Origin: Sulfurihydrogenibium sp.
GTDB taxonomy: Bacteria > Aquificota > Aquificia > Aquificales > Hydrogenothermaceae
Direction of reading: 5' to 3'
Length of the DNA: 64,000 nt
NCBI RefSeq assembly: GCF_028276765.1
Contig: NZ_JAPYVU010000001.1
Span: 1 to 64,000 of the forward strand
A model generated the notes under the pieces. It was not told the DNA's origin and did no database searches. It saw only the letters and a list, made by a program, of their open reading frames with translations. Both the position numbers and the translations under genes were made by a program. Below, in pieces: positions 6,257-61,272 of the stretch; the stretch's first letter is position 1, and each line of letters begins with the position of its first letter.

Positions 6257-6438
6257 ATACCTCGAGTGAGAAATTAGCGGTTTTTATAGAATTTAAAAAT
6301 GAGATCCTTCGGCCTTACGGCTTCAGGATGACGAAGAAAACTTGATAATCACATACTTGACTACGGGCAACCCATATTTGTCATTCTGCAGCCGGCGAAG
6401 AATCTCATGCTTTTATTGAATTTCTCACCCCGAGGTAT
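6257..6438. repeat. Complete type-1 intergenic repeat (MITE-like), best copy
   Basis: About 182 bases bounded by ATACCTCGAGTGAGAAATT (6257-6275) and its imperfect inverse AATTTCTCACCCCGAGGTAT (6419-6438). Inside each end is a hairpin core, facing inward: ATCCT/AGGAT at 6304-6329 and ATTCT/AGAAT at 6383-6403. The inverted similarity runs about 50 bases from each end. There is no reading frame inside. The structure resembles a non-autonomous transposable element; no clear target duplication is visible. Confidence 0.8.
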
Positions 6439-6454
6439 TAGTAATATTTAGGTA

Positions 6455-6493
6455 GAATTTTAAAATGGAGATCTTTCGGAAAGTCTTTAAGAT
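6455..6493. repeat. Truncated copy of the repeat core
   Basis: Contains AGAATTTTAAAATGGAG followed by a hairpin core with a third paired version of the stem, ATCTT (6471-6475) and AAGAT (6489-6493). It lies just after the recJ stop. On the minus strand it could act as a hairpin at the 3' end of recJ mRNA. Confidence 0.5.
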
Positions 6494-6509
6494 GGCACAA
6501 TACGAGAAA

Positions 6510-8624: not shown

Positions 8625-8803
8625 GATACGTCGCGTGAGAAATTTAACAAAAACATGAGATTCTTCGCTTACGCTCAGAATGACAATTTTGGTTTTTTTG
8701 AATCAGTCTCATAGAAAAGCATAAAAGAGTATCAAATCAGAGACTAGTTCTTAAACCTATCTGGCTATTTATTTGTTATCTGAGGCTGTAAGCCGAAGGA
8801 TCT
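8625..8803. repeat. Type-1 repeat interrupted by an IS end fragment
   Basis: Begins with the type-1 end GATACGTCGCGTGAGAAATTT, then a hairpin core ATTCT/AGAAT (8660-8681). After an IS200/IS605-type end fragment (8715-8749) a second core follows, with a strong inner stem GGCT-GTA-AGCC (8784-8796) ahead of AGGAT. The right terminal repeat is missing. It fills most of the gap between the small secreted gene and the zinc-ribbon gene. Confidence 0.6.
8715..8749 (-). mobile_element. Solo left-end remnant of the TnpB element found at 48286
   Basis: The reverse complement starts AACTAGTCTCTGATTTGATA and continues ACTCTTTTATG. It matches the left end of the element in nfo (48287-48321) over about 35 bases with two or three differences. 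No transposase sequence accompanies it, so this is a remnant end. It sits between two cores of an intergenic repeat. Confidence 0.65.
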
Positions 8804-18997: not shown

Positions 18998-19284
18998 ATA
19001 CCTTGGGTGAGAAATTACCTCCATAGCTTACTTTTTCTAAAAAATCTATAACAAATAGCAAATGCATATAGATAAGCAATGAAAGTTTTAATCTTTCTCC
19101 ATCTACTTATAGAGACTGTTTCAAAAATCCAAATCGTCATTCTGAGCGAAGCTAAGAATCTCTTCCTTTCTTTTTAAAAGGATGACAGAGAAAGCGAAAG
19201 TATGTTAACGATTGCCTTATTTGTCATTCTGCAGCCGGCGAAGAATCTCATGATTTTAATGAATTTCTCACCCCCGATGTATAT
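18998..19284. repeat. Composite intergenic repeat (type-1 ends, type-2 end inside)
   Basis: Bounded by ATACCTTGGGTGAGAAATT (18998-19016) and AATTTCTCACCCCCGATGTAT (19262-19282). It is longer than the 182-base form because it holds an internal type-2 end (GAGACTGTTTCAAAAATCC at 19122) and two hairpin cores, ATTCT/AGAAT at 19139-19159 and 19226-19246. This is good evidence that the two repeat types insert into or recombine with one another. Confidence 0.65.
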
Positions 19285-26052: not shown

Positions 26053-26307
26053 TATATCTTGAGTGATAAATCAGAGATTTTTATAAAATTTTAAAAAAGA
26101 GATCCTTCGGCCTTACAGCCTCAGGATTATTATAAAACTTATTCTCTTAAAGTTTAAAAATTTTTGGTATACTTAATATACGATGACAGGAAAAGGTCAA
26201 CTTACAAAAATTTTGGAACAGTCTCACTCACTTCAGTCTTTGACTATTTACATTCTGCAGCCGGCAAAAACCTCCCTAATCTTATTGAATCTCTCATACG
26301 ACGTATC
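26053..26307. repeat. Composite intergenic repeat
   Basis: Left type-1 end ATATCTTGAGTGATAAATC, then core ATCCT/AGGAT (26102-26127). A type-2 end (CTTACAAAAATTTTGGAACAGTCTC) follows at about 26199-26225. A decayed right half (ATTCTGCAGCCGGCAAAAAC) and type-1 end CTCTCATACGACGTAT close it. It occupies most of the 470-base gap between rbfA and nuoA. The rest of that gap is A/T-rich and holds the nuo promoter. Confidence 0.6.
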
Positions 26308-29177: not shown

Positions 29178-29430
29178 CATGTCGAGCGAGAAATGAAGCT
29201 GTTTCAAAAAAACCAACATCGTCATTCTGAGCAAAGCGAAGAATCTCCTAATCTTTTTTCAAGTCAAAAAAATCAAAAGAGAAGCTCCTTCGGACTTATA
29301 TCCTCTAAATAACGAATTTGATTTTTTACCACAAATGTAAATAAAGCATGGAATTTATAAAAATCATACTCTGAATGAGAAATTGGTGGTTTTTATAAAC
29401 CTTAAACAAACGAAGTCCTTAAGGTTGAAT
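29178..29430. repeat. Two broken intergenic repeats between nuoCD and nuoH
   Basis: A type-1 end (ACATGTCGAGCGAGAAATGA) runs directly into a type-2 end (AGCTGTTTCAAAAAAACC) and core ATTCT/AGAAT (29224-29244). A decayed CTCCTTCGGACTT core follows. A second type-1 left end, CATACTCTGAATGAGAAATT, is at 29365-29384. The remaining gap to nuoH is A/T-rich with a TATAAT at 29566-29571 that could be a promoter. No gene is present between 29149 and 29602. Confidence 0.6.
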
Positions 29431-37616: not shown

Positions 37617-37777
37617 CTCTGAGGTTGTTCTAAAACTCAACGTTGTCATTTGCAGCTGTGCGGAGAATCTCCTATTTTTCTTTTTAAGTCAAAAAAATCA
37701 AAAAAGAGATCCTTGGGTCTTTGGCTTCAGGATAACGGGCAAAGGCAAATTTACAAAAATTTTGGAACAGACTCTAA
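37617..37777. repeat. Complete type-2 intergenic repeat
   Basis: Begins TCTGAGGTTGTTCTAAAACTC and ends AAAAATTTTGGAACAGACTCT, imperfect inverted ends about 20 bases long. Inside are one decayed half (CATTTGCAGCTGTGCGGAGAATCT) and one clear core ATCCT/AGGAT (37709-37733). About 160 bases, no reading frame. It fills the gap between the convergent gmk and hemD genes. Confidence 0.7.
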
Positions 37778-43084: not shown

Positions 43085-43165
43085 CGTCATCCTGAACGTA
43101 GTGAAGGATCTCATTTTTTAATGTTTTTTTGAAAAATAGGAGATTCTTCGCCGGCTGCAGAATGA
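43085..43165. repeat. Pair of inverted repeat cores
   Basis: Two cores face each other: ATCCT-gaacgtagtga-AGGAT (43089-43109) and ATTCT/AGAAT (43143-43163). This is the inner part of a type-1 or type-2 element without clear ends. It lies in the 217-base gap upstream of rplS; nothing else is seen there. Confidence 0.6.
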
Positions 43166-43222
43166 CACCGTTGGGTCGTTCCTTGTCATCTTATATATCA
43201 CTTATCATTTCGTCTTTTCTCT

Positions 43223-46135: not shown

Positions 46136-46415
46136 CATATCGAGCGAGAAATTCAATAAAAGATTGAGATTCTTCGCCGGCTGCAGAATGACAATATTGA
46201 TTTTTGGAACAGTCTCATAAGTAGGGCAAGAAATTCAATAAAAGCATGGAGGGTGTTCTAAAATTCCATTAAGTTGTATAATATATGCGTAAAATAGGTT
46301 TGTTTTTAATTTTTAATTAAAAAAGAGCGCAAAAGAAAGAGTAGTAAAAAGGAGATTCTTTGCTTTGCTCAGATGACAAGAAAAATAAGCTTACAAAAAT
46401 TATGGAACACTCTTT
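46136..46415. repeat. Nested type-1 and type-2 repeats
   Basis: A type-1 left end (ATATCGAGCGAGAAATTC) and core ATTCT/AGAAT (46169-46189) are followed by a type-2 end (GGAACAGTCTC). A second type-1 left end (GGGCAAGAAATTCAATAAAA) is broken by a type-2 element whose ends are GGAGGGTGTTCTAAAATTCC (about 46248) and AAAAATTATGGAACACTCTT (46395-46414). The whole 390-base gap between the EAL gene and the DUF29 pair is repeat DNA. Confidence 0.65.
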
Positions 46416-52837: not shown

Positions 52838-53075
52838 CAGGAGATTCTTCTTTGGCTGTGGAATGAATGTAGATAAAACAATAAAATCTAATACTCCACA
52901 TAGAACATCCTGAGGCCTTAAGGCCGAAGGATCTCATTTTTAAATTCTATAAAAACCGCTAATTTCTCACCCAAGGTATATTTAAATATATCAGGTTAGA
53001 AATTCATAAAAGTAGGAGATTTTTGCCAGCTACAGAATGACAATTTTGATTTTTAGAATAGTCTCACCCATTTCT
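52838..53075. repeat. Two partial intergenic repeats
   Basis: An eroded copy (GGAGATTCTTCTTTGGCTGTGGAATGA, about 52840) is followed by a clear half with core ATCCT/AGGAT (52907-52932). Its inner stem is the perfect palindrome GGCCTTAAGGCC, and it ends AATTTCTCACCCAAGGTATA (52961-52980). A third fragment ends with a type-2-like TTTTTAGAATAGTCTCAC. The whole 387-base gap between divergent purS and lysC is repeat DNA plus a TATAAT at 53113-53118 ahead of lysC. Confidence 0.65.
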
Positions 53076-58196: not shown

Positions 58197-58199
58197 CAA

Positions 58200-58376
58200 C
58201 TTTGGCAGTAAATTGGCATTTTTTGTAGAATATAAAGAGGAGATCCTTCGGACTTACGTCCTCAGGATGACAGAGAAAGGTTAAATGATAAGCATCAGAA
58301 AAGGAATAACCTTATTCCGTCATTCTGAGCGAAGCGAAGAATCTCATGTTTTTATTGAATTTCTCACTCAACATAT
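58200..58376. repeat. Near-complete type-1 intergenic repeat
   Basis: Left half: GTAGAATATAAAGAGGAGATC with core ATCCT/AGGAT (58243-58268). Right half: core ATTCT/AGAAT (58322-58342, the GAGCGAAGCGA version), then ATTGAATTTCTCACTCAACATATG. Length and order equal the copy at 6257-6438; the left terminal sequence is eroded. The central AAATGATAAGCATCAGAAAAGG is shared with the eroded copy at 18830. Confidence 0.7.
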
Positions 58377-61184: not shown

Positions 61185-61272
61185 TTGTTAAGACTGCTTG
61201 TAAAAATCCACATCGTCATTCTGAAGCCGGCGAAGAATCTCATACTTTTATTGAATTTCTCACCCGACGTAT
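61185..61272. repeat. Half repeat (type-2 left end, type-1 right end)
   Basis: GTTAAGACTGCTTGTAAAAATC resembles a type-2 end; core ATTCT/AGAAT is at 61218-61238 and the type-1 end AATTTCTCACCCGACGTATA at 61253-61272. The same hybrid order is seen at 663-769. The remaining gap to 61402 is A/T-rich without further structure. Confidence 0.65.

Follow-up and report, generated by a model that had tools for sequence, protein, structure and literature searches.

The DNA analysed here, a stretch of 64,000 nucleotides from Sulfurihydrogenibium sp. (referred to as the window), starts within a CRISPR repeat (positions 1-30; Rfam CRISPR-DR2, 38.9 bits) and holds about 20 copies of a short hairpin core. 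A sequence-only reading of the window had listed 16 core intervals, all of which were bounded by the complementary 5-mers ascribed to them, with exact coordinates. Searching the window with a covariance model derived from 30 copies (filters off) gave 22 matches, several of them degenerate and 16 with E < 0.002, and no Rfam family matched above its gathering score at the cores. Orienting the cores by their tag (GTCAT...) puts those at 6304-6329, 6471-6493, 8660-8681, 26102-26127, 37709-37733, 43143-43163, 46169-46189 and 58243-58268 on the minus strand. The simple hairpin plan proposed earlier, five outer bases on either side of a variable interior, was present in a unit that turned out to be longer than described, with an unpaired (T/C)GTC tag before the stem and ATCT(C) closing it. 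In full, the core fold consists of the unpaired tag, five Watson-Crick pairs, a conserved tandem GA/GA mismatch and two further pairs (range 2-4), capped by a GNA or GNNA loop. Three paired versions of the outer stem had been proposed; ATTCT and ATCCT were common, while ATCTT/AAGAT was represented by one degenerate copy (6468-6496, minus strand; 18.3 bits, E 0.075), situated within a decayed MITE-II-like left half. Over the whole genome (1.75 Mb) a degenerate motif gave 99 matches, relative to 10 for the reversed pattern, and at least 158 matches to the model were obtained with 150 of 1161 candidates scored. In 453 kb of this genome (G000), 166 cores were found at no more than one mismatch, none of them (0 of 166) within an ORF, and extrapolation from these 453 kb suggests several hundred cores per genome. 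A very loose pattern search for cores was set aside, as it returned mostly chance matches.

Two types of composite element were recognised by lining up core pairs with their flanks. MITE-I (about 154 bp) is made up of GAGNGTGTTCCAAAA, an ATTCT core, a spacer, an inverted ATCCT core and TTTTGGAACANNCTC, and MITE-II (about 181 bp) of ATACCTTGGGTGAGAAATT, an inverted ATCCT core, a 46-base linker, an ATTCT core and AATTTCTCACCCGACGTAT. A TIR-I or TIR-II end adjoined most of the cores in the window. The complete MITE-II at 6257-6438 comprises TIR-II (6257-6275), an ATCCT core on the minus strand (6301-6332), the linker, an ATTCT core on the plus strand (6380-6406) and a right end in ...AATTTCTCACCCCGAGGTAT; another MITE-II of about 180 bp (58197-58376) has a decayed left end, followed by an ATCCT core (58240-58271, minus), the linker, an ATTCT core (58319-58345, plus) and TIR-II (58358-58376). 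A 154-bp MITE-I (37621-37774) holds, between its TIR-I ends, a core on the plus strand (37645-37671), the spacer and an ATCCT core on the minus strand (37706-37736). Some elements were hybrids joined at a core, for example that at 8626-8710 (minus strand), where a TIR-II end (8626-8644) and a TIR-I-like end (8696-8710) enclose an ATTCT core (8657-8684). A mosaic at 26054-26306 consists of a TIR-II left half with an ATCCT core (26099-26130, minus), a TIR-I end (26211-26225) and a TIR-II right half. At 43086-43166 an ATCCT core (43086-43112, plus) and an ATTCT core (43140-43166, minus) form a head-to-head heterodimer, with a DNA fold of -11.1 kcal/mol (z -2.6).

Further cores were located beside TIR ends by the covariance model together with TIR matches. 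On the plus strand these were a TIR-I end (662-676) with a degenerate core (698-721); a TIR-I end (19112-19126) followed by an ATTCT core (19136-19162); an ATTCT core (19223-19249) followed by a TIR-II end (19262-19280); an ATCCT core (52904-52935) followed by a MITE-II arm ending in TIR-II (52961-52979); and an ATTCT core (61215-61241) followed by TIR-II (61254-61272). On the minus strand were an ATTCT core (46166-46192) with a TIR-I end (46202-46216) adjoining a TIR-II-like end (46217-46235), and two degenerate cores (46352-46377 and 53016-53041), each with a TIR-I end (46400-46414 and 53051-53065, respectively). A further TIR-I end (29195-29209, plus strand) precedes an ATTCT core (29221-29247), and the related genome G004 has cores at the same gene junction.

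Both composites have the TIRs and target duplications of MITEs. For MITE-I there were 30 complete elements, and its 15-mer TIR-I end occurred 195 times in G000, relative to 3 times for reversed controls; TIR-II gave 224 matches in the same genome. Exact flanking repeats of 10-11 bp were present in 13 of the 30 MITE-I copies, compared with 0.2% of shuffled flank pairs, and flanking repeats of 19-32 bp in 8 of 20 MITE-II copies; the remaining 17 and 12 copies, respectively, had no long flanking repeat, which we assume to reflect decay or mosaicism. One locus in G000 was the empty site for two adjacent MITE-I copies (with TATAATCAT repeated) and one MITE-II (with ATATCAAAAT repeated) in G004. Core pairs in G000 were oriented head-to-head (HH) in 63 cases, tail-to-tail (TT) in 48 and HT in 18, the frequency of TT pairs being a consequence of MITE-II itself having this arrangement, whereas HH predominated in a sample of GTDB copies. 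Among the sampled stretches no autonomous relative of MITE-II was found, the long elements flanked by TIR-II being neighbouring MITEs only. In G000, contigs C5, C20, C28, C33 and C38 have a TIR-II end roughly 107 bases from their start, which places breaks of the assembly inside copies of MITE-II.

In G004, an insertion sequence with the ends of MITE-I was located at L380:17228-18219, with its own TAAAACCTAT duplication and two ORFs; it carries no cores. The second ORF matched DDE_Tnp_1 (E 2.4e-9), and both ORF fragments matched the NCBIfam IS5 model below its curated cut-off, for which reason the cautious designation is 'IS5-like'. At this locus the transposase is divided between two ORFs, and the matches listed for G000 are partial. 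A strict core pattern occurred in 71-91 copies in each of three of the seven genomes of the genus (G000, G004 and G005) and not at all in G001, G002, G003 and G006, and it was missing from nearly all other relatives. The C-terminal part of the transposase was likewise found in G000, G004 and G005, and the same C-terminal query had no match in the four core-free congeners; since the three core-bearing species form one clade (97-98% identity for one protein, versus 87-88% to the others), this 3/3 versus 0/4 distribution amounts to a single evolutionary contrast. The composites resemble known MITEs and IS5-family insertion sequences in having TIRs, target duplications, no coding capacity and a matching insertion sequence, and differ from them in holding two CGTC-like hairpins as internal cargo and in a duplication of 10-11 bp. 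The IS5-like transposase has another copy (94% identical) at G004:C1:827685-828119, within a 1879-codon open frame, perhaps as an insertion within a long gene.

The paired stem changes seen in the window had been taken as a sign of selection for a folded structure. Across many phyla such changes were genuine: in cross-phylum copies for which both stem arms were left free and only tag, interior and tail were fixed, 97.4% of cells were paired and six of the seven stem pairs showed two-sided change (54 distinct sequences). The covariation score of these copies was 0.470, compared with 0.205 (sd 0.016) for shuffles that keep relatedness, and none of 500 shuffles scored as well. Compensated pairs were found at all five outer stem positions in bacteria outside the genus, the first two stem pairs being A-T and T-A in nearly all copies. 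Of 124 G000 copies, 118 had T-A or C-G at pair 3 when each stem pair was freed in turn; at pair 4, single-sided changes outnumbered compensated ones within that genome. Two Mucilaginibacter species differed in the second hairpin of an orthologous intergenic site: one species had ATTCT/AGAAT together with GAGCGAAGCGA, the other ATGCT/AGCAT together with GAACGGAGTGA, a difference for which gene conversion could be an alternative source.

The contrast between ATTCT and ATCCT inside the window had mainly a different origin. Rather than independent changes, these versions were mostly the two fixed, ancestral arms of the composites, which comes close to the outcome that the sequence-only reading had itself named as telling against it. 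Head-to-head pairs in G000 were hetero in 48 cases and homo in 2, an excess with a probability of about 1e-13 under random pairing if common descent is ignored. The general GTDB sample showed no hetero rule (25 hetero versus 28 homo HH pairs), and scorable Mucilaginibacter units were 15 hetero and 2 homo, in a set of 20 units found by similarity to a heterodimer. Pairing almost exclusively between ATTCT and ATCCT arms within the genus is what would be expected if the stem versions were just two or three ancestral repeat families, none with covariation of its own. This explanation is highly improbable given the inner-stem compensation inside the ATCCT family itself (pair 3 being C-G in 9 and A-T in 8 copies in G000, and A-T in 23, C-G in 10 and G-C in 2 in G004), the compensated outer pairs in other phyla and the change from ATTCT to ATGCT at the orthologous Mucilaginibacter site. 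By sequence comparison, genuine covariation is best seen outside the window, in the cross-phylum copies.

Two-sided changes would also result from template-switch correction of imperfect palindromes during replication, a process established for quasi-palindromes. We consider it unlikely that such correction, with no selection on structure, produced the paired changes: single-sided changes are common in the decayed copies of this genome, as it would allow, yet copies collected without regard to the GA/GA mismatch mostly retained it instead of having it corrected to pairs (57 of 78 in GTDB, 60 of 91 in IMG/VR and 39 of 43 in Mucilaginibacter), which speaks against simple palindrome correction, and G and A were kept at the loop ends as well.

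That similar motifs occur in unrelated phyla had been stated in the sequence-only reading, and correctly so. Scanning one genome per GTDB species placed the motif in at least 119 stretches (selected by the pattern), in taxa including Acidobacteria, Nitrospinota, Omnitrophota, Chloroflexi, Lachnospiraceae, Bacteroidales, Planctomycetes, Patescibacteria and Alphaproteobacteria. Of the 141 GTDB copies listed, 117 had T and 19 had C before GTC, and the tail was CT followed mostly by C or T. Conservation across phyla beyond the unit was limited to the T (or C) just before it and, to a weak degree, a C just after it; since nothing further out is conserved, the conserved entity is a unit of about 27 bases. 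Among 232 loci, the only gene families recurring beside cores were phage structural genes, and no transposase family recurred there. The motif was also present in 113 viral stretches from IMG/VR (L179-L291; for example L198, L180, L226 and L267), several of which had it beside portal, tail sheath or terminase genes, and phages may carry the core between hosts. The repeat dRS3 of Neisseria is said to be a target for phages and insertion sequences, and these viral occurrences would fit a core that serves chiefly as a common insertion or attachment target of this kind. The cores, however, are placed inside mobile units that have their own ends and not at junctions, and such a role seems hardly probable at all.

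In other bacteria, of which Mucilaginibacter is an example, the repeated unit was the head-to-head core pair itself; the Mucilaginibacter pairs had sharp ends and no flanking duplication. At two loci in this genus (L421:2066 and L425:1222) the paired hairpins, also head-to-head, had a different stem, TGTCATTGCGAGCGAAGCGTGGCAATCGC, closer to the published CGTC REPs. In another Mucilaginibacter (L416, near 2049-2170), the site corresponding by orthology to that of the L104 pair has a different short palindrome, TGTCACCCTGAGCTTGTCGAAGGGT, which looks like a further common repeat.

The CGTC REPs described by Di Nocera, De Gregorio and Rocco in 2013, which include Neisseria dRS3 and Rickettsia RPE-4 and RPE-6, are of all described groups the closest to the core. 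According to that report (PMC3733652), families 1-4 have a CGTC (or TGTC/CCTC) tag, a stem of 8-9 bp with at most one mismatch, a loop of 4-5 bases, A-T and T-A as first pairs and a three-base unpaired tail that is mostly CCA, head-to-head dimers being predominant and tail-to-tail dimers rare; repeats with more than one stem mismatch were discarded unless they were partners of dimers. The two kinds of repeat share the CGTC/TGTC tag at the 5' foot, a stem starting with A-T and T-A, a mostly intergenic location, head-to-head dimers that are often hetero, a patchy distribution across phyla and no adjoining Y1 transposase. The core differs in a stem broken by the two-base GA/GA mismatch, which departs from 8-9 bp with at most one mismatch, in a GNA/GNNA loop of 3-4 bases in place of 4-5, in a CTC rather than CCA tail, and in being carried here inside MITEs. 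Because tag, first pairs and intergenic pairing agree while stem, loop and tail do not, we regard the core as related to, and working like, the CGTC REPs and as set apart from all four families.

GTAG REPs, BIMEs and REPINs, which are associated with RAYT/TnpAREP, also consist of a tag and an imperfect hairpin with a conserved stem mismatch and occur in inverted pairs as units; the core has a different tag, no Y1 gene in its host, and target duplications. TnpAREP of E. coli needs both the tag and the conserved stem mismatches (PMC8266576), by which comparison the core would work like such a substrate, with no Y1 enzyme associated. A RAYT-type Y1 (HUH) tyrosine transposase that recognises tag and hairpin as single-stranded DNA and moves cores or pairs, as in the REPIN model, would be in keeping with this architecture of a tetranucleotide 5' of the hairpin foot plus conserved stem mismatches, with the sharply bounded Mucilaginibacter pairs, and with the presence of some Y1 gene in 34 of 49 motif-bearing genomes. 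In this genome it is nevertheless very unlikely to be the agent: neither G000 nor G005 gave a PF01797 match, such a core was absent within about 1.5 kb of all 30 Y1 loci from genomes with the motif, and the Sulfurihydrogenibium copies make target duplications, unlike Y1 insertion. The RAYT association was consequently rejected for the host and for the 30 loci, and Di Nocera et al. likewise report no transposase adjoining CGTC repeats (PMC3733652). The only Y1_Tnp gene in the genus was at G004:C1:1433445-1433807 (E 1.6e-44).

Whether the selected fold is RNA or single-stranded DNA had been left as an alternative in the sequence-only reading; the covariation proved genuine, and the loops point to DNA. 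In DNA, a tandem GA with a pyrimidine on its 5' side and a purine on its 3' side makes a stable motif, a context that each strand of the core matches. Loops were mostly three or four bases in length, and 81 of 110 loops of three bases and 42 of 45 loops of four had G..A at their ends; the 42 GNNA loops comprised 26 GNYA and 16 GNRA, the GNYA loops being outside the GNRA rule of RNA. GNA and GNNA loops on two G-C pairs are those of the ultra-stable DNA mini-hairpins described by Hirao and co-workers, and GCGAAGC has a Tm of 78 C (PMC4686876). The inner stem and loop of the core correspond to this structure (GC-GNA-GC or GC-GNNA-GC), with the difference that d(GCGAAGC), as presented there, is an in vitro structure and the core is embedded in a natural repeat. 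The interior GCAGCCGGCGA, common in this genome, is without a GNA loop, and single cores folded barely better than shuffles under standard energies. From the GNA/GNNA loops and the tandem GA, a folded single-stranded DNA target is the best inference, and by analogy with the mini-hairpins it appears likelier than RNA.

An RNA element retained for gene regulation (an mRNA stabiliser, processing site or terminator) would account for the almost wholly intergenic position of the cores, for their being commoner in convergent than in divergent gene gaps (61% versus 38%), and for the good RNA fold of the longer ATCCT version (-13.6 kcal/mol, z -3.3). Against this, no strand preference was seen between co-directional genes in G000 (39 same, 40 opposite; 47 versus 35 in G004), the copy sets are missing from four congeners, the GNYA loops break the RNA rule, the cores have no Rfam match, and no T-tract was conserved across phyla in the aligned GTDB copies, so that a regulatory RNA is quite unlikely. 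The terminator reading in particular was dropped, a scan of one region having given neither an excess nor a site at cores.

The most probable interpretation, to which we assign a probability of roughly 0.7, is that the cores are CGTC-REP-like hairpins, most likely acting as folded single-stranded DNA, that have multiplied in this Sulfurihydrogenibium genome as cargo carried inside two families of MITE, of which MITE-I is inserted in trans by the IS5-like transposase. MITE-I, in which 15-bp inverted repeats enclose an ATTCT and an ATCCT core with outward-facing tags, would be recognised at these repeats by the DDE transposase of the insertion sequence with matching ends, giving the 10-11 bp target duplication. 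MITE-II, with the same two arms and tags inward, would make its longer duplications through another enzyme. The core itself may be bound by some shared cellular or mobile-element enzyme. More specifically, and tentatively, it could be the recognition hairpin of an enzyme acting on single-stranded DNA and common to many phyla, with the GNA/GNNA mini-hairpin and tandem GA as a DNA-specific fold under selection; MITEs of unrelated kinds, paired units and phages would each have captured it as a ready-made module for copying or for the replication fork.

CGTC-type repeats are reported to be without a dedicated transposase (PMC3733652), and a close relative is now tied, in one genus, to a DDE transposase. 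The shared ends, the target duplications and the co-occurrence with this transposase make movement of the hairpins testable, and a hairpin nearly unchanged across many phyla, with a fold unusually stable in DNA chemistry, makes its recogniser a well-posed experimental question. In the literature searched, nothing relevant on the motif or its encoded peptides was found. Translated in frame 1, the core GTCATTCTGAGCGAAGCGAAGAATCTC gives VILSEAKNL and its ATCCT counterpart VILSEAKDL, and spurious predicted peptides can arise from short ORFs that overlap a core (for example L288).
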